Assembly (NCBI GenBank): GCA_020051175.1
Contig: JAGVJJ010000007.1
Location: 124,001 to 188,000, forward strand
DNA length: 64,000 bases
Direction: 5' to 3'
Source: Bacteroidia bacterium
GTDB lineage: Bacteria; Bacteroidota; Bacteroidia; 2-12-FULL-35-15
Shown here in pieces: positions 1 to 56,300 of this stretch; position 1 is the stretch's first letter, and the number at the start of each line of letters is the position of its first letter. The position numbers and the translations under genes are program-made. The notes beneath the pieces were generated by a model. That model saw nothing but the letters and a program-made list of their open reading frames with translations, did not search any database and was not told the DNA's origin.

Positions 1-2056
1 CTACACTCAATGTATCAAAAACAGGAATGTAGGGCACAATGATGTTCTGGAAAATACCTCCATCCACTGTAGAAACAGAGGTGCAGCCTATATTATCGGC
101 TATCTCAACACGGTAATTGATAGTGGCGTTGCAGGCCTGTATGGTATCAATATAACTTGTACTGGTGGTGGTGCCGGTTATGTTCCATACGCCCGTTGGG
201 TTTTCTTCGTAGATGGTGTAAACACCCAAAGAAGTAGAAGGGTTGGGTGTTGATATCGGGTTCCAGTTCAGCATGGCTGTACCATTAGCCGGGTTATTGA
301 CATTGAGGAGCATAGTGCTTACGGTATCATCGGGAATGGAATACACCTGCCCGAAGCAGCCGGAGCGTGTTCTTACAAAATAATATACCTGACCTGTAGT
401 TGCATTGGCGCCTGCATGTGTATAGGAAGTGGTGGTTAAGCTGTAAGCCAGGATGCTGTCGATGAGTGTGAATGGCCCCCCAGGACTGGTTGATGAATAA
501 ATGAAATACCCGTTAAATGTACCTTCCGGGTCGGGTGGTGCGGCCCAGGTAAGTGTTACATCGCCATTCGGTAAAACAGAAGCACAGCTTATTTCAGGTG
601 ATGGCACAATAGGAGTGGCCAAAACCGTGATAGATACGGTGGAGATGTTTTCGGCAGGAGCAGGGCAAAAATCATCTTTTACCCTGAAAACAAAGGTGTA
701 GGTATTGGCTTTGGTATTGCAGGTAGAATTGTAAGAGATGTGATTGCAGGTTGTTTGCCAGTTAAATGTTGTTGAAACATTTGTTGGGGATGATGTAGGC
801 AATGAGCTCGACAATGTAGCACATGGCGGGTTCAGGCAGCCCGAAGAGGCATTGGTGAAATTGGTGCCAAACTGGGTTCCGGAAGCATTGATGGTCAACG
901 ATTGCGGTGTTACCCCATCGGCAAGCATTCCCGGATCGTTACCATTTAAGGTAAAAGTTACCAGCGTACCGGCCTGAACTGTAGCCTGGTAGGAGCTGTA
1001 GGTAACGGTTGGCATATCGTTGACAGCACAAGGCAAAAGCACCACTTGTATCTCCCGGTAAATTTCTGCCACCAGTGTACCGCATTTCCAGGCTTCCACT
1101 TTAATGTTGGTAACAAAATAGCCTTGTGTATACGATGTAAACGAAATTTCCCCTGTAGCCTGGTTGATGGATGCAGGAACGTTTGCCGGGTTTTGAGTAG
1201 TTCCCGGCAAAGGGCTGTTGTATGAATAACCAGAAGTAAATGGCACAGGTGCAGGATTGGTGCCTAACGAATAAATACCGGTAAAATCGTCAAGAGGCTC
1301 GGCCCATGAATAGGAAAGGGAATCCAGGTCCGGGTCAAAAGCGTTGTGGTTGTATTTGAAAGGCGCGCCAACACAAATAACTGTGCTCGGGCTTTCCAGG
1401 AAAGTAGGTGAAGAATCAAAGCATGGACCGGCATTCTGTCCGTTGTAGGCATACATTACAGCACGTAAAGTAAATCCATAGGAATTAGCACTTTGCAGGT
1501 TGGTAAGCGAGCCATTGCGGCAGCAATCGGAATAGGCAAATATCCAGCCTTGCGCAGGTGGGACACCGGCAAGTGTTGTGGGTGCCGATTCATACACGGT
1601 TTCCTGAACTGCACCTGCCACCGGGCTTCCGCTTGTGGGCCAGCCGGGCTGTGACTCAGCATTGGTACAGGAAATGGTTGGTCCGGCAATGTTGCAGGAA
1701 GGTGAAATATCCGTTTGTACGACCTGGTTCAATGATATATCGGTTACCGAAGGATGGTTGAACACCTTCATCTGGATGGCGGCAGGTATGTCAATACCAT
1801 TACAATCGCGGTAAAGCTTGAGTTTGAAAATGTATTGCCCGTTCCCCTGGCACTCCCAGGTAATTTCTCCACCCATGAGGTGGGAGGCGAAGAGAGCCCC
1901 TCCCAGCCTCCCCGAAGGGGAGGTGATAAGGAATGGAAGAAAATATAAAAACAAAATTAAAACACCTCTCCCCAGCCCCCGAAATAAATTCGGGGCAAGC
2001 TCTCTACTCAGGAGAGTGGACTGGTGTGCGTTTTTACTATTTTGTTTCAGGTTCAT
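1..2056 (-). CDS. Large secreted adhesin-like protein, 5' part only (C-terminus off the left edge)
   Basis: The reading frame is open from ATG at 2056 to the left edge (about 685 codons visible), so the C-terminus and any T9SS sorting domain lie outside the window. The mature N-terminus reads ASHLMGGEITWEC..GQYIFKLKLYRDCNG, the opening typical of Bacteroidota gliding-associated/PKD-type surface proteins. Cys-rich, Ig/cadherin-like beta segments follow (for example KYNHNAFDPDLDSLSYSW), and near the edge a fibronectin-III-like segment (ISCASVLPNGDVTLTW). A hydrophobic core (VLILFLYFLPFLIT, residues 32-45) is the signal peptide, but it is flanked by residues 17-31 and 46-54, which are encoded by palindromic GC-rich repeat DNA (see repeats). 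It is probably exported and surface exposed. Family assignment is by motif recognition only; the exact role is unknown. Confidence 0.8.
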   Translation of the reverse strand, partial: MNLKQNSKNAHQSTLLSRELAPNLFRGLGRGVLILFLYFLPFLITSPSGRLGGALFASHLMGGEITWECQGNGQYIFKLKLYRDCNGIDIPAAIQMKVFNHPSVTDISLNQVVQTDISPSCNIAGPTISCTNAESQPGWPTSGSPVAGAVQETVYESAPTTLAGVPPAQGWIFAYSDCCRNGSLTNLQSANSYGFTLRAVMYAYNGQNAGPCFDSSPTFLESPSTVICVGAPFKYNHNAFDPDLDSLSYSWAEPLDDFTGIYSLGTNPAPVPFTSGYSYNSPLPGTTQNPANVPASINQATGEISFTSYTQGYFVTNIKVEAWKCGTLVAEIYREIQVVLLPCAVNDMPTVTYSSYQATVQAGTLVTFTLNGNDPGMLADGVTPQSLTINASGTQFGTNFTNASSGCLNPPCATLSSSLPTSSPTNVSTTFNWQTTCNHISYNSTCNTKANTYTFVFRVKDDFCPAPAENISTVSITVLATPIVPSPEISCASVLPNGDVTLTWAAPPDPEGTFNGYFIYSSTSPGGPFTLIDSILAYSLTTTSYTHAGANATTGQVYYFVRTRSGCFGQVYSIPDDTVSTMLLNVNNPANGTAMLNWNPISTPNPSTSLGVYTIYEENPTGVWNITGTTTSTSYIDTIQACNATINYRVEIADNIGCTSVSTVDGGIFQNIIVPYIPVFDTLSV
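1893..1925. repeat. Palindromic GC-rich repeat inside a coding sequence
   Basis: Contains the hairpin cctccccgaaggggagg. On the minus strand it reads in frame as SPSGRLGGA (residues 46-54 of the left-edge gene). A homologous element at 44113-44134 also encodes GRLGGA, inside the wbqC-like gene. Confidence 0.75.
1963..2016. repeat. Second palindromic repeat in the same signal-peptide region
   Basis: It has a core hairpin ccccgaaataaattcgggg and outer CTCTCC/GGAGAG ends. Read on the minus strand it encodes roughly residues 17-31 (SRELAPNLFRGLGRG) of the left-edge gene, just before the hydrophobic signal core. Confidence 0.65.
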
Positions 2057-41089: not shown

Positions 41090-42838
41090 ATGGATACTTC
41101 GTATTTGTTATTAATTGTGTTTTCGATCACTACTGTTATTGGTTTATGGAAGCTGTTTCCATTAGCCGGAGAAGAGGGGTGGAAAGCATTTGTACCTTTC
41201 TATAATTTTATCGTTTGGCTCAAAATTATTCAAAAGCCCTGGTGGTGGATTTTTCTGATTATTACTCCCGGTGTAAATTTTTTAATGTTCGGCATCATGT
41301 GTTTATTGCTTGCAAAAGCATTCAATAAACGCAGCTTTTCTGAAAAAGCCATCGCATTCCTCGCAGGGTATCTTTACCTTCCATACCTGGGTTTTCAAAA
41401 GGATACAGTTTATGTTGGACCTGAGGACACAAGTAAACTAAAGCCATCCATAGCGCGTGAATGGACGGAAGCCATTGTATTTGCTGTGGTTGCAGCAACG
41501 GTTATCCGTACCTTTTTCTTTGAAGCGTTTACAATTCCAACTTCATCGCTCGAAAAGTCAATGATGGTGGGCGATTACCTGTTTGTAAGTAAAGTTAGCT
41601 ACGGAGCGAAAATTCCCAATACCCCATTGTCATTCCCATTTGCACATCATACACTGCCTTTTACCGAGCAAACAAAATCCTATGTGGAGTGGTTCAAGCT
41701 GCCTTATTTCCGTTTGCCCGGACTGGCGGATGTGAAGAACAATGATATTGTTGTTTTCAATTATCCGGATGGTGATACCGTTGCGCTCGATCACCAGAAC
41801 CAAAGTTATTACCAGATATGCCGTAACAATGGCTTTAAAAGCCTTTATAATAAGCCCAACGTAAAGGTTAAAATAGGCTATGATGAGCAGGGACAGTATC
41901 TCTACGCTCCTATTGGCGATGTTGTAGCGCGTCCTCCGGATAAGCGCGAAAATTATGTAAAACGTTGCGTTGCCATTGCTGGCGATACACTTCAAATCAT
42001 TAACCAGAAACTATTGATCAATAACAAGCCGGCTTATGTGGCGCCAACTATGCAGTACCATTATAAGGTAAGAACAGATGGAACGGAATTTGACGCTAAA
42101 TTGATTAAAAAGCTGGATATTACCGATGAAGGTAGTGGCTGCTATTTATACAAAATCGATACTACCGGTGAAAAGGAAATAATAGTGAACCTTCCGTTTA
42201 ATAAGGTAGACAAGGTGAAAAGCCTTCCGTTCGTAAAATCTGTAGAGCCATATATTGCGAAAGGGCCAGGAGAGGGGGATCCTAGCATATTCCCTCATAG
42301 CCCTGATTATGCATGGAACAATGATAATTTCGGACCACTTTATATCCCTAAAAAAGGAGCAACGGTGGAGTTGAATACAACCAATATTGTACTTTACGAC
42401 AGGATTATTAAGAATTATGAGCTGAATGACCTGGAAGTGAAAGGTGGCAAAATATTTATCAATGGGCAACCGGCAACATCCTATACCTTTAAAATGGATT
42501 ACTATTTTATGATGGGAGATAACCGCCATAATTCAGCCGATTCACGCTGCTGGGGATTTGTGCCGGAAGATCATGTTGTGGGCAAGCCCGTATTTGTTTG
42601 GATGAGCATTAAAGAAGACAACCCGAATGTTTACAATCCACAGAAGAGTGGTTTCTTAAAGAAATTGAAAACGTCCCTGTTTGAGGATCCGGAGCGCAGA
42701 AAACGTTTCTTTACCTTCGTTGGAAACGATGGCTTGTCGCGTTCTTACCTCATTCACTTTATTGTAATTGTTGCAGCAATATCAGGTTTTGTATATTTCA
42801 AAAATAAACGGGCCGAGAAAAACGCGAAGGACGCTTAG
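41090..42838 (+). CDS. lepB: Signal peptidase I with N-terminal membrane extension
   Basis: The 582-residue protein starts with an extra domain of about 115 residues with three hydrophobic segments (GWKAFVPFYNFIVWLKI resembles DUF5684). The S26 part has box B FTIPTSSLEKSMMVGDYLFVSK with the nucleophile Ser before Leu (a Bacteroidota variant of Ser-Met), box D ENYVKRCVAIAGD with the general-base Lys, and box E MMGDNRHNSADSR. A large insert separates D and E, and a second helix closes the protein (IVIVAAISGFVYF). It cleaves signal peptides at the outer face of the inner membrane. A second homologue follows at 42953. Confidence 0.92.
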   Translation: MDTSYLLLIVFSITTVIGLWKLFPLAGEEGWKAFVPFYNFIVWLKIIQKPWWWIFLIITPGVNFLMFGIMCLLLAKAFNKRSFSEKAIAFLAGYLYLPYLGFQKDTVYVGPEDTSKLKPSIAREWTEAIVFAVVAATVIRTFFFEAFTIPTSSLEKSMMVGDYLFVSKVSYGAKIPNTPLSFPFAHHTLPFTEQTKSYVEWFKLPYFRLPGLADVKNNDIVVFNYPDGDTVALDHQNQSYYQICRNNGFKSLYNKPNVKVKIGYDEQGQYLYAPIGDVVARPPDKRENYVKRCVAIAGDTLQIINQKLLINNKPAYVAPTMQYHYKVRTDGTEFDAKLIKKLDITDEGSGCYLYKIDTTGEKEIIVNLPFNKVDKVKSLPFVKSVEPYIAKGPGEGDPSIFPHSPDYAWNNDNFGPLYIPKKGATVELNTTNIVLYDRIIKNYELNDLEVKGGKIFINGQPATSYTFKMDYYFMMGDNRHNSADSRCWGFVPEDHVVGKPVFVWMSIKEDNPNVYNPQKSGFLKKLKTSLFEDPERRKRFFTFVGNDGLSRSYLIHFIVIVAAISGFVYFKNKRAEKNAKDA

Positions 42839-42952: not shown

Positions 42953-44011
42953 TTGAAAAAAGGTTCAACCATAAGAGAATGGATAAAAGCAATACTTCTT
43001 GCTTTTATAACAATTATACTTATCCGGGTGTTTTGTTTTGAAGCTTTTACCATTTCCTCTTCTTCTATGGAAAAAACCTTATTTACCGGTGATTATGTAC
43101 TGGTAAATAAGCTTAGCTACGGTCCGCGGATACCAATGACGTTGTTTTCAATGCCTTTCGCCCATCAGCGCATGCCTTTTACTGAAAATACAAACTCGTA
43201 TCTTAACTGGTTGCAACTGCCCTATAAACGGCTGTTTGGGACACCCGATGTGAAACACAACGATGTCATTATGTTCAACTATCCTATGGAAGAGGAACAT
43301 CCTGTTGATCAGCGCATTTATTATATCAAGCGCTGCGTGGGCATTCCGGGGGATATGCTGGAAATACGGAAAGGACAGGTATATATCAACAGCCACTACA
43401 ATGATGTGCCCGAAAAGCTTCAGTTCAGCTATAAAGTAATTTCCGACAAGGATACGGTTGACTCGGAAGCTTTGGCCCGGATTGGCATTACAGAAGGCGG
43501 TAAGCTGCGCAATTTTGGTGAGTTTTGGTTCGGTTTGAGTTCCCAGAATGTAGACAGTATCAAACGCATTATGAATGTTTTGAGGGTAGAACCCATTATT
43601 GAAAAAAAAGGCACTTACAGCGATTATATGTTTCCGGAAGACGAACGGTTTTTGTGGAACGTGGATTTTTTTGGCCCTGTATATGTACCGAAAGCAGGGG
43701 ATTCTATAGAGATGGCTGTGCAGACATTGCCTTTGTACAAGAGGATAATTGATGTGTATGAAAACAACGATGTACGTGTCAGTGGCGACTCCATTTTTAT
43801 CAATGATAAATATGCCACGCATTATACGTTTAAATCAAATTATTATTTTATGATGGGCGATAACCGCCACAATTCGGCCGATTCACGTTTCTGGGGCTTT
43901 TTGCCCGAAAGCCATATTGTTGGAAAAGCTGCTGTTGTTTTGCTTTCTATCAATAAAACAGATTCAACGAGCAGTATACGTTGGGACAGGTGGTTTAAAT
44001 CAATTGAGTAA
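42953..44011 (+). CDS. Signal peptidase I, second copy
   Basis: The 352-residue frame opens with TTG at 42953 (no upstream ATG fits; the protein begins MKKGSTIREWIKAILLAFITI). The anchor helix is followed by box B FTISSSSMEKTLFTGDYVLVNK (Ser before Met), box D IYYIKRCVGIPGD (Lys present) and box E MMGDNRHNSADSR. Both catalytic residues are intact. It lacks the N-terminal extension of the copy at 41090. Its stop is directly followed by the first arm of the inverted repeat at 44016. Confidence 0.9.
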   Translation: MKKGSTIREWIKAILLAFITIILIRVFCFEAFTISSSSMEKTLFTGDYVLVNKLSYGPRIPMTLFSMPFAHQRMPFTENTNSYLNWLQLPYKRLFGTPDVKHNDVIMFNYPMEEEHPVDQRIYYIKRCVGIPGDMLEIRKGQVYINSHYNDVPEKLQFSYKVISDKDTVDSEALARIGITEGGKLRNFGEFWFGLSSQNVDSIKRIMNVLRVEPIIEKKGTYSDYMFPEDERFLWNVDFFGPVYVPKAGDSIEMAVQTLPLYKRIIDVYENNDVRVSGDSIFINDKYATHYTFKSNYYFMMGDNRHNSADSRFWGFLPESHIVGKAAVVLLSINKTDSTSSIRWDRWFKSIE

Positions 44012-44015
44012 AAGG

Positions 44016-44134
44016 CCCCTTCCAGCCTCCCCAAAGGCAAGGGGATAGATAAAATTTTTAATTTTTGAAAATGAATGAACACTATCAAACGGTAAATGGC
44101 TCAAACTCCTCCCCTTTGGGGAGGCTGGGAGGGG
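44016..44134. repeat. Inverted repeat pair bracketing a start codon
   Basis: Arms 44016-44037 and 44113-44134 (22 bp, one mismatch) are inverted copies of a GC-rich element. The 75-bp interval holds the leader and the ATG (44065) of the wbqC-like gene. The second arm is translated as part of that protein (SPLGRLGGA). The same element type is present at 1893-1925. Confidence 0.85.
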
Positions 44135-44742
44135 CTGCTATTTTATCTACTGCATACCTCGGGCCCATCCAGCATTATTCCAAACTTTTTTTATACCCGG
44201 AATGTACTATCGAACACTATGAGCATTTTACAAAACAAACCTACCGTAGTAGGTGCGATGTTTATTCGCCCAATGGTTTGATTACGCTGAGCGTTCCACT
44301 TGTTAAACGCGCAAAGCGGCAGGCCGTGAAAGATTTGAAAATATCGTATGACTACGACTGGCAGCTGCTGCATTGGCGAACACTGGAATCGGGCTACAGG
44401 CGTTCCCCGTTTTTTGAATATTATGAAGATGATTTTTATCCCTTTTACAGTGATAAAAAGTATGATTTTTTGATTGACCTGAATGAAGACCTGCAGCAGG
44501 TGGTACTGGAGCTTTTAAAGAAAAGGCCAAACTATGATTTTAGCACAGAATACCATAAAAGCTATCCCGAGGCTGACGATTACCGCGAAATCATTTCACC
44601 GAAAGTGCCATTGGAAACGGATACGCTTTACCAAATAAGGCCATACTCCCAGGTATTCGATACCAGGCACGGTTTTATACCTAATCTGAGCATTGTGGAT
44701 TTGCTCTTTAATCAGGGCCCCAGGGCAACGGAGTTTATCTGA
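44065..44742 (+). CDS. WbqC family protein with repeat-derived N-terminal extension
   Basis: The 225-residue protein matches WbqC from residue 25 on: ILSTAYLGPIQHYSKL, with DVYSPNGLITLSVPLVKRAK and LKISYDYDWQLLHWRTLESGYRRSPFFEYYEDDF. WbqC-like genes occur in O-antigen and surface polysaccharide settings; the activity is not certain. Residues 15-24 (SSPLGRLGGA) are encoded by the right arm of the inverted repeat, and no other start codon lies between it and the conserved part, so the extension is presumably made. The usual family start is close to the LSTAYL segment. Confidence 0.88.
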   Translation: MKMNEHYQTVNGSNSSPLGRLGGAAILSTAYLGPIQHYSKLFLYPECTIEHYEHFTKQTYRSRCDVYSPNGLITLSVPLVKRAKRQAVKDLKISYDYDWQLLHWRTLESGYRRSPFFEYYEDDFYPFYSDKKYDFLIDLNEDLQQVVLELLKKRPNYDFSTEYHKSYPEADDYREIISPKVPLETDTLYQIRPYSQVFDTRHGFIPNLSIVDLLFNQGPRATEFI

Positions 44743-44762: not shown

Positions 44763-44900
44763 TTATCTTTGGCCTTTAATTATTAAGTTAATAGTTATTA
44801 GGTTATTAGTTAATGGGAATAGCTAATGAATTAAACAGAAGCTTTCAATAACGCAAATGCCCCAATAACTTAATAACTCAGTAACCGAATAACATAATTA
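44763..44900. repeat. AT-rich inverted motif region upstream of the carboxylase gene
   Basis: Contains several forms of taataactt / aagttatta-like sequence (attattaagttaatagttatt near 44775 and aataacttaataactcagtaac near 44864) in opposite orientation. It looks like low-complexity or weakly palindromic DNA; no function is apparent. Confidence 0.4.
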
Positions 44901-44912
44901 GCATTTATCGAA

Positions 44913-47255: not shown

Positions 47256-47963
47256 ATGCCTGTAAAAAGTAAAATTGTTTTAATAGTCGGCTCTTTCCTG
47301 ATTTTGATCTTTGGATGGATTTTTTTAAAGTATTACCGTGTATATGCCGTTTACAAGCTACCTACGTGTAATATGGATCCATATTTTCATATAGATAAGA
47401 CAATTTTTGGAAGTAGTCTTTTGAAAGTGCAGAAAGGGGATGTTGCCGTATATATGGGTGATGCGCTGCCAAACGATCTAACAAATAATTCTTACGAGGT
47501 TGTGGGCCGTATTGTTGCTGAGCAAAATGATACAGTTTGGCTAGTCAACGGGATATTGTATGTCAACGGTTTATTGGCAGATGATACCATGAATTTGAAT
47601 TACCATTTTATTCTTCCGGAAGCAGTTGTAGCTGGAAAGCTTACCGAATACCAGGAAAAATACATGGTTCACCCTTATTATGGAAACTGGATAAGTCTTA
47701 ATACCAGTTATGCAAATCTTATGGAGATGGGTGCAAAGGATAGTGCAACCAGGACTGTAGATGGTTCTATGGTCATTACTCCTCTTGATTTTGGGGTATT
47801 TACCTCCGAGCTGTGGAACTATGATAACTTTGGGCCTGTTGCTGTGCCTGAAGAATCGTATTTTATACTGGGTGACAACCGGAGCAACTCAGCCGATTCG
47901 CGATTAAGGGGTTTTATTCATAAAGATAAGATTATAGCGAAGATTGTTACAGGAAACCAGTAA
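47256..47963 (+). CDS. Signal peptidase I homologue lacking catalytic residues (pseudoenzyme)
   Basis: The 235-residue protein has one N-terminal helix, then the S26 order of parts: box B as LPTCNMDPYFHIDKTIF, the box D region as YEVVGRIVAEQND and an intact box E FILGDNRSNSADSRLRGF. In box B the Ser nucleophile is replaced by Asn (N-M), and in box D the Lys is replaced by Gly (VGR instead of VKR). With both residues of the Ser/Lys dyad gone it is unlikely to cleave signal peptides; it may bind or regulate, or may be decaying. The frame is intact, so selection may persist. The start codon directly follows a terminator hairpin. Confidence 0.85.
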   Translation: MPVKSKIVLIVGSFLILIFGWIFLKYYRVYAVYKLPTCNMDPYFHIDKTIFGSSLLKVQKGDVAVYMGDALPNDLTNNSYEVVGRIVAEQNDTVWLVNGILYVNGLLADDTMNLNYHFILPEAVVAGKLTEYQEKYMVHPYYGNWISLNTSYANLMEMGAKDSATRTVDGSMVITPLDFGVFTSELWNYDNFGPVAVPEESYFILGDNRSNSADSRLRGFIHKDKIIAKIVTGNQ

Positions 47964-53300: not shown

Positions 53301-56300
53301 GTTAATGCTGAATCCTCGCATACAAGGTTAGTACCTGTACAAGCACCTGAGCGTAAGTTTACTACTGCATTCAGGCCGGTAGAACCAACTACGGTAATAT
53401 CGTGTGCTGTAGCAGTAGCCACAAAGCTGTACCAAACATCATCGTCAGCTGTACCCGTACAAGGAGCTGCAGCAACCGATTGTGTAGCACCCAGTACAGT
53501 TCCTGATGTTGCACTTCCACAAGTAGGACCGTAAACAGTTAAGGAAACTGCATCGGCACACTCATCATTTGCAGGAGGCTCAGTACCTGGTGTTGTAACG
53601 CATATTGTAAATGTTGTAGTTGAAGGGAATCCGCTGCCGTAGTCATAAACCCTTACAAAATAAGTAGTACCAATTGTAAGACCTGTAGCGTGGATTATTT
53701 CTTTTCCACCGTTACCTGTACTGTCCGCACAACCTACGTTAGGGCCGGAGCAGTTGTTCTGGTGCATGTCAACAACTGCGTTGAAGCTTGCAGAACCCTG
53801 AACGGTAACATCGTGAGTGGTAGCAGTAGCTACGAATTTGTACCAAACGTCATCATTTGCGCTACCAGTTGTACCGTTACAGCTGATAGCAGCAATAGAT
53901 TGTGTTGCACCCGCTACGTTACCTGTAGTCGTTCCTCCGCATGTAGGGCCGTACACAGTAAGTGTAGTAGCTCCCGCACAGTTGTTGTTTGGCGGAGGTG
54001 TGGTAGTAGGTGTTGTAACACATATTGTAAATGTTGTTGTTGAAGGTGTTGTGCTGCCGTAGTCGTATACCCTTACATAATAAGTGTTTCCGATTGTCAG
54101 GCCGGTAGCAATGATAACCTCTGTTCCACCTATTGCAGTAGAATCAGCACAGTTAACATTCGTACCTGAACAGGCACCTGTTCTAAGGTCAACCACAGCA
54201 TCAAGGTTAGAAGAACCAACCACGGTGATGTTGTGTGAAGTAGAAGTAGCTACGAAGCTATACCATACATCGTCCTCGGATGTACCGGTAAGACCGTTAC
54301 ACAATAGCGGAGCGATAGACTGAGTAGCACTTGCCACATTTCCTGTTGTAGCACCACCGCATGAAGCACCATACACAGTTAAAGGTGTAGCTCCTGAACA
54401 GTTGTCGTTCGAAGGAGTTGGAGGCGGAGGTGTTGTAACGCAGATTGTAAATGTTGTTGTTGCTGCATTTGCAGAGTAGTAATGGTATACCCTTACATAA
54501 TATGTAGTACCTACAGTTAATCCTGTAGCTGTCATTGTTTCTGTACCACCTGTACCGGAAGCATCCAGACAGCTGACATTGGTGCCGTTGCAAGAACCAG
54601 AACGCAGGTCAATTACAGCGTCAAAGCTTGCAGAACCAGCTACAGTAATAATGTGAGAAGTGGATGTAGCCACAAAGCTGTACCAAACATCATCATTAGC
54701 AGTACCCGCACAAGGAGCAGCAGCTATAGACTGAGTAGCACCAGCAACATCACCAGTTGTGGTACCACCGCAGGTAGCACCGTATACTGTTAATGCTGTA
54801 GCACCTGTACATTCATCATTAGCAGGTGTAGGTGTTGTAACACAGATAGTAAATGTTGGGGTAGCAGGAGCAGAAGCGCTGTAATGGTAAACCCTTACAA
54901 AATAAGTGCTTCCCGCAACAAGACCTGTAGCATTGATAACCTCAGTTCCGCCACCTGTTGTAGCGTCAGCACAGTCTACATTTGTACCAGGACATGAACC
55001 AGCTCTTAAATCAACCACAGCATCAAAGCTTGCAGAACCAACTACTGTAATTGTATGTGAAGAAGCAGTGGCAACAAAGCTGTACCAGATATCATCGTCT
55101 GCTGTTCCAGAGAAGGAGTTACAAGTAATACCAGGCAATGACTGGGTTGCACCTGTAACATCACCTGTTGTAGCACCACCGCAGGTAAGACCATACACCG
55201 TTAATGACGTAGCGCCAGAACAGTTGTCGTTAGCTGGTGGTGGAGGTGCAGGAGTTGTTACGCAAATAGTAAATGTTGTAGTTGTTGGAACATTTGGTCC
55301 GTAGTGGTATACCCTTACATAATAAGTAGAACCTACTGTAAGTCCTGTAGCACTTAATACTTCTGTCTGTCCGCTCAATGTAGCATCTTTACAGCTGATA
55401 TTGGTGCCGTTACAAGAACCTGAACGCAAATCAATTACCGCATCGAAAGCTGAGCTTCCTACTACAGTAATGTCATGTGTTGCCGATGTAGCAACAAAGC
55501 TGTACCAAACATCGTCATCAGCAGTACCAGCACAGGTAGCAGCCAATGATTGAGTAGCACTCAGCACATTTCCGGTAGTAGCACTTCCGCAAACGGTATC
55601 GTATACGGTTAACGAAGTAGCCCCTGCACAGTCATCATTTACTGGCGGAGGTGTAGTGATACAGATAGTGAAGGTTGGAGTTGTTGGTGAAGTACCATAA
55701 TTGTAAACACGAACCAGGTAAGTAGTTCCGATAACAAGTCCGGTAGCATTTAATACCTCAGTACCTCCGGTGAAGTTAGCATCAGCACAGTTCAGGTTGG
55801 TACCATTACAAGCACCTGAGCGCAGGTCAACAACAGGGTCGAAACCGGTTGAGCCGGCAACAGTGATGGTGTGTGCTTCAGCAGTAGCAACGAAGCTATA
55901 CCATACATCATTTGCAGCAGGTGCCGTAAAGTTATTACAGCTGATTGGAGCTTCAGATTGAGTAGCACCTGTTACATCACCTGTAACAGCTGAACCGCAG
56001 GTAGGTCCGTATACAACAAGTGCTGTAGCACCACCGCAGGTATCATTTGCAGGCGGAGGAGGAACAGGAGTTGTAACGCAGATTGTAAAAGTGCTGGTGG
56101 TTGGCACGTTTGACGACCAGTGGTAAACACGTACATAATAAGTTGTGCCTATAGTAAGTCCTGTAGCATTTAATACTTCAGTACCGCCATTTGCAGTTGC
56201 GTCTTTACAGCTAAGGTTGGTACCATTACAAGCACCCGAACGCAGGTCGATTACCGCATCAAAGCTTGCAGAGCCAACAACAGTAATATCATGTGTTGCC

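Follow-up and report, generated by a model that had tools for sequence, protein, structure and literature searches.

Short palindromic repeats and site-specific nucleases have been described in several systems, three of which resemble in part the sequence considered here. REPINs and BIMEs, described together with RAYTs, consist of two short inverted palindromes tens of nucleotides apart, occur in many dispersed copies and are non-autonomous (PMC6006769, PMC3733652). Rickettsia palindromic elements (RPEs) are palindromic inserts that lie in frame within ORFs, and the ORFs carrying them likely encode functional proteins (PMC3733652). The EDxHD homing endonucleases, of which I-Bth0305I is an example (PMC3943268), bring in the third component, a nuclease. 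DUF559 has been assigned to the EDxHD homing endonuclease family (PMC9403480) and placed with the Vsr-like PD-(D/E)XK nucleases (PMC12907096). The same domain is found in VsrA of Caulobacter, a stand-alone putative mismatch-repair nuclease, and the accessible part of that report mentions no flanking repeats (PMC12907096). The three systems are known separately; the titles and abstracts of the open-access papers searched connect DUF559 neither with palindromes at its flanks nor with in-frame inserts in synthetase genes, although a prior description elsewhere is possible.

The element described here, at the lepB-wbqC junction of genome G000 (4.05 Mb, 117 contigs, an 82%-complete draft), shares features with all three. 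Its two inverted palindromes and many dispersed copies recall REPINs; however, wbqC-type arms flank no RAYT in the genus, the gene that such arms enclose is DUF559, and copies lie in frame in conserved genes. In-frame insertion into ORFs is shared with RPEs, from which the element differs in lineage, probably in sequence, and in that its full-length members carry DUF559. To our knowledge, no nuclease is tied to RPEs. As with the relatives of DUF559 among the EDxHD homing endonucleases, conserved sites of essential genes are occupied in a patchy distribution, but the DUF559 element does not reside in an intron or intein, has paired palindromes as its boundaries, remains part of the host protein and leaves arm-only derivatives. 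The feature at wbqC (44012-44138) is probably a non-autonomous copy of a mobile element that is palindromic, associated with a nuclease and inserted in frame without splicing.

The arm pair at the lepB-wbqC junction

The window is the whole 64,000-nt stretch that was analyzed, G000:C55:124001-188000. Two 22-bp arms (44016-44037 and 44113-44134) oppose each other with one mismatch across 75 bp, and the wbqC ATG at 44071 lies between them, which reproduces the inverted pair around the start codon reported in the initial annotation. A longer extension of the arms pairs 44015-44049 with 44101-44135 (35 nt, 83% complementary). A 26-mer is present in inverted orientation at 44016-44041 and 44109-44134, and its copies in the window number three (44109, plus strand; 44016, minus strand, with 3 mismatches; 1897, minus strand) versus none in 100 dinucleotide shuffles. 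Each arm comprises a short GC hairpin, CCTCCCC-nnn-GGGGAGG, and an outer GGGAGGGGCTT-type tail, and two inverted arms bound the element. Two further statements of that annotation are borne out: the right arm is coding, SSPLGRLGGA being read in frame in the WbqC-family gene, and the left arm starts just past the stop codon of the upstream signal peptidase S26 gene (44009-44011), with a gap of 4 nt. The features are listed in Table 1, where R1 denotes a single-arm covariance model trained on 21 arms without a neighboring nuclease gene.

Table 1. Coordinates of the wbqC element, its neighboring genes and the lone arm in the window.
Feature	Position	Strand	Basis
Left arm	44012..44047	-	R1 44.4 bits, E 4.7e-13; hairpin CCTCCCC-nnn-GGGGAGG with outer GGGAGGGGC tail, partly decayed
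Loop (wbqC leader and first codons)	44048..44102		Sequence; unlike the loops of other copies
Right arm, in-frame coding SSPLGRLGGA	44103..44138	+	R1 54.9 bits, E 1e-16; translation
First in-frame ATG of wbqC, within the element	44071..44073	+	No in-frame ATG/GTG/TTG from right arm to ILSTAYLGP
wbqC-like gene, 223 aa, with putative element-derived N-terminal extension of ~22 residues	44071..44742	+	PF08889 E 5.8e-28
Upstream signal peptidase S26 gene	42953..44011	+	PF10502 E 1.8e-41; stop 44009-44011
Lone arm, in frame in a signal-peptide-like leader (SPSGRLGGA)	1893..1928	-	R1 52.3 bits, E 8.6e-16; ORF context

Copies of the repeat in unrelated genes

The 26-mer pattern, with up to 3 mismatches allowed, has 20 copies in the G000 genome versus none for the reversed pattern. 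At E <= 1e-3, R1 matches 34 arms in G000, many of them in frame within conserved genes, and 8 in the genome of the sister species G002. Most G000 arms are paired in one orientation, the left arm being on the minus strand and the right one on the plus strand. Several pairs start straight after a stop codon and end just short of, or past, the next start, so the position of the first wbqC arm directly behind a stop reflects a general habit in tight operons. Within pairs, the hairpin loop matches that of the partner arm in 24 of 39 cases versus 5.5 expected, a match that likely stems from within-element homogenization or from pairing of the two arms. Selection of the arms for freedom from stop codons in all six frames was considered and rejected, as 14 of 21 arms are stop-free versus 11.1 in dinucleotide shuffles (maximum 15), hardly above what composition gives.

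Other REP families were also seen in this genome. A RAYT-like Y1_Tnp gene (L021, G000:C75, 1100-2900) adjoins a long tandem array of GCGGCAGAGCCGCGAAACATTTGTA repeats, which belong to a different REP family, and a second Y1_Tnp gene (L022, G000:C104, 1150-1950) is flanked by GTCGGGATTGCAAATCCCGACC palindromes, the third REP family of the genome.

ORFs were read around every copy in G000; IleS, FeoB and GldF-GldG were identified by Pfam, and the other host gene names were assigned from conserved motifs. In feoB a whole arm pair lies in frame within the FeoB_N domain. At gldF-gldG (L232, G000:C83, 4317-6806) an in-frame arm pair joins the two genes into a single ORF of 830 aa in which the domains of both proteins are present. 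The ileS gene carries a single arm at C102:54197 as well as a pair at 55122-55572, and leuS (L278, G000:C5) holds a full DUF559 element together with further in-frame arm-like inserts, PPSPLEKGPGDEA and NNTPLLWRGARGEA. Copies are also found in a TonB-receptor-like leader, a thioredoxin-like gene and signal peptides, and the reading frame that is used varies from copy to copy. The proposal that one repeat family gives frame-compatible peptide to unrelated proteins, made originally for wbqC and the ORF at 1897, holds for IleS, FeoB, GldF-GldG and the TonB-receptor-like leader too, with related arms in LeuS. If these copies derive from a mobile element, the recurrent SPxGRxGGA-like peptides in Bacteroidota proteins would be its footprints, and some start codons, N-termini and gene fusions annotated in these genomes would be element-derived.

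DUF559 genes between the arms

Between the two arms of the 451-bp pair in ileS lies a DUF559 domain in frame (PF04480, E 2.8e-33; residues 700-805 in an ORF of 1325 aa). The ileS and leuS copies are the only DUF559 genes found in G000, both in frame and both flanked by arms of the superfamily; the wbqC copy holds no nuclease between its arms. By sequence, the domain matches the structure PDB 3hrl strongly (E 2.6e-20) and that of I-Bth0305I, 3r3p, marginally (E 0.023). In the genus, DUF559 is present in 31 of 36 genomes.

To score flanking arms, the 250 nt on either side of a DUF559 gene were compared for their best inverted match, a score of at least 13 being required; as controls, equally sized placements were drawn at random within these loci. 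Inverted arms flank 53 of the 65 DUF559 loci of the genus versus 4/321 and 0/310 control placements, and 15 of 26 loci class-wide versus 0/118. On plasmids of other phyla 6 of 12 DUF559 loci reach an IR of at least 13 versus 4/61 controls, with clear cases in Pseudanabaena, Picosynechococcus, Deinococcus, Azospirillum and Sphingomonas; in the last of these (plasmid NZ_CP155753.1, L324, 1453-1863) the DUF559 gene and its pair of palindromic arms lie between sufB and sufC in a suf operon. The same inverted-match test gave no clear paired arms at 12 of the 65 genus loci and at about half of the plasmid loci. Since 4 of the 12 plasmid loci (Azospirillum L318, Photobacterium L321, Shinella L325 and Sinorhizobium L326) show a palindrome on just one flank, the evidence across phyla is suggestive. 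The least biased of the tests is that with R1, which was trained on nuclease-free arms: 31 matches fall in 31 DUF559 loci (98 kb) versus 2, both weak, in 31 RAYT loci (96 kb), and those in the DUF559 loci lie mostly just outside the domain, at about 1415-1490 on the minus strand and 1815-1950 on the plus strand. An association between the arms and DUF559 is well supported.

Only 3 congeners have a DUF559 gene flanked by arms of the CCTCCCC subtype; in 5 others, pairs of this subtype occur but no such gene does. Pairs with exactly CCTCCCCnnnGGGGAGG occur in 8 of 36 congeners. Each of the 3 genomes in which precisely this arm borders DUF559 belongs to these 8 (Fisher p = 0.008, not corrected for relatedness). 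The assemblies of 5 of the 8 have no DUF559 flanked by it, for which incomplete drafts may be part of the explanation.

In-frame DUF559 recurs at the same positions in LeuS (RNWIGKSEG / VFTTRPDTIFG), MetH (VALSDFVKP / DYIGAFA), IleS (ELID / FPADFIAEG), Acs and others. Nearly all in-frame members fall in one clade of the DUF559 tree (94/95), with L265, L304, L303 and L327 outside it. Both the target site (leuS, metH, acs, ileS and others; 10 changes versus 21 when shuffled) and the arm type (38 label changes versus 69.6 when shuffled) track this tree. Of 30 congeners, 26 have an empty ileS site; G000 carries the full element, and the other three contain short inserts, namely a recognizable single right arm in G004, a related palindrome in G001 and an insert without clear assignment in G025. 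In G203, which belongs to another family, this ileS site is occupied by the element too, and the DUF559 copies of G203 and G000 are sisters on the tree. The presence and absence at ileS and the sorting by site match the pattern expected of homing; ancestral presence followed by many losses may be an alternative for the patchy ileS pattern.

The arms might instead be independent repeats that act as landing sites, with DUF559 genes inserting into or beside existing pairs without moving them. Nuclease-free pairs do outnumber DUF559-bearing pairs in G000, and a single ileS site has arms of different subtypes in different species. However, arm subtype clusters on the DUF559 tree and the two arms of a DUF559 element are closely alike, as would be the case if the arms moved along with the enzyme, and the free-standing DUF559 clades have distinct arms of their own. 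We regard landing sites as an unlikely account of the association.

An ordinary REPIN moved by a RAYT (Y1_Tnp), the cognate RAYT being absent from the 82%-complete assembly, would account for the architecture of an inverted pair of short palindromes, many copies and GC hairpins, and two Y1_Tnp genes are present in G000. These genes, however, are flanked by other palindromes (GCGGCAGAGCCGC arrays in one case, GTCGGGATTGCAAATCCCGAC in the other), and none of the 31 RAYT loci of the genus is flanked by the wbqC-type arm family, in line with the R1 counts given above. RAYT was rejected as the mover because the arms are lacking around these 31 loci, and the REPIN reading is held to be quite improbable.

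The wbqC start codon and a candidate life cycle

The wbqC locus was read in 30 congeners, G000 included. The 28 loci other than those of G000 and G002 are without the element and mostly start with MN(xx)AILSTAYL or a close variant. The sister species G002 has an arm pair at the same place and is the only one of the congeners read to share the G000 copy; its arms are oriented as in G000 and lie about 150 nt apart versus about 55 in G000. The proteins begin MN...SNSSPVGRSGGVSILSTAYL in G002 versus MN...SNSSPLGRLGGAAILSTAYL in G000, and the arm loops differ jointly between the species, being AAA/TTT in G000 and ACA/TGT in G002. The G000 sequence from the right arm to the conserved ILSTAYLGP contains no in-frame ATG, GTG or TTG, so initiation must fall inside the loop of the element, which thus appears to supply the wbqC start codon. 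As the lepB-wbqC junction in several relatives spans a few nucleotides or overlaps, the insertion presumably split or displaced the original start. In the structure model of WbqC, pLDDT is under 50 at residues 1-18 and the first strand begins at residue 22, which suggests that the element-derived tail lies outside the predicted fold.

The initial annotation viewed the pair as a plausible on/off element, a reading that the analysis does not support. For a regulatory switch, in which an mRNA stem or inversion of the segment toggles wbqC, there are the strong RNA stem predicted across the arm pair (-65.1 kcal/mol, z = -6.0, 24 bp and more), the retention of the pair in G002, and the loss of the in-frame wbqC ATG that a reading of the sequence predicts upon inversion of the loop, whereby a switch is possible in principle. 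However, the same structure recurs at about a dozen unrelated sites, within genes and between genes, so that pairing-capable arms are a general property of the element. Moreover, the loop differs in length and sequence between G000 and G002, and the other congener wbqC loci are without the element. With the predicted stem and the ATG loss as its sole pointers, a switch is not needed to explain the locus and is considered highly improbable.

Returning to the nuclease-associated mobile element, a life cycle can be proposed. In full-length members, a DUF559 endonuclease gene lies between the arms and shares the reading frame of the host protein. The DUF559 enzyme, a Vsr-like EDxHD nuclease, would cut or nick either the hairpins of the arms or a conserved target within the host gene, and repair of the break would copy the arm-bounded DNA into the cut site. 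Because the insert would be read through in frame, the host protein would stay active without splicing. Internal deletion would yield arm pairs and further loss single-arm scars, both of which may be moved in trans. At wbqC, an arm pair would have filled the lepB-wbqC junction in the ancestor of the two species, displacing the original start, and today the element would provide the start codon and a disordered N-terminal tail.

Splicing elements were rejected as an explanation of the ileS insert. By inspection, the insert (GPSPTLPQGKG...LPLGEGKGGA, followed by FPADF) has neither an N-terminal Cys/Ser nor a C-terminal His-Asn before a Cys/Ser/Thr junction, and Pfam finds no intein domain in it; for group I/II introns, Rfam at E up to 1 returned only a chance microRNA match across five loci, and the insert is open throughout.

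Beyond the wbqC copy, we propose tentatively that these loci could form a separate class of mobile element. In this class an arm-bounded DUF559 nuclease (EDxHD, Vsr-like) would home in frame into conserved sites of essential genes (IleS, LeuS, MetH, Acs) as a permanent, unspliced insertion. Its non-autonomous derivatives, either arm pairs or single arms, would reshape start codons, signal peptides and the boundaries between genes throughout Bacteroidota, as at wbqC and gldF-gldG; related loci combining a nuclease with arms would be those in Cyanobacteria, Deinococcus and Proteobacteria. We know of no enzyme for in-frame palindromic repeats; if the proposal is true, such repeats would gain a directly testable candidate nuclease, and a homing-type nuclease could persist in essential genes without an intron or intein.

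Two features of the surrounding window may also be recorded. Three signal-peptidase-like genes lie within 7 kb (41090-42838, 42953-44011 and 47256-47963), and the AT-rich intergenic stretch between wbqC and the next gene (44780-44905) contains repeated TTATTAAGTTAATAGTTATTAGGTTATTAG-type units.
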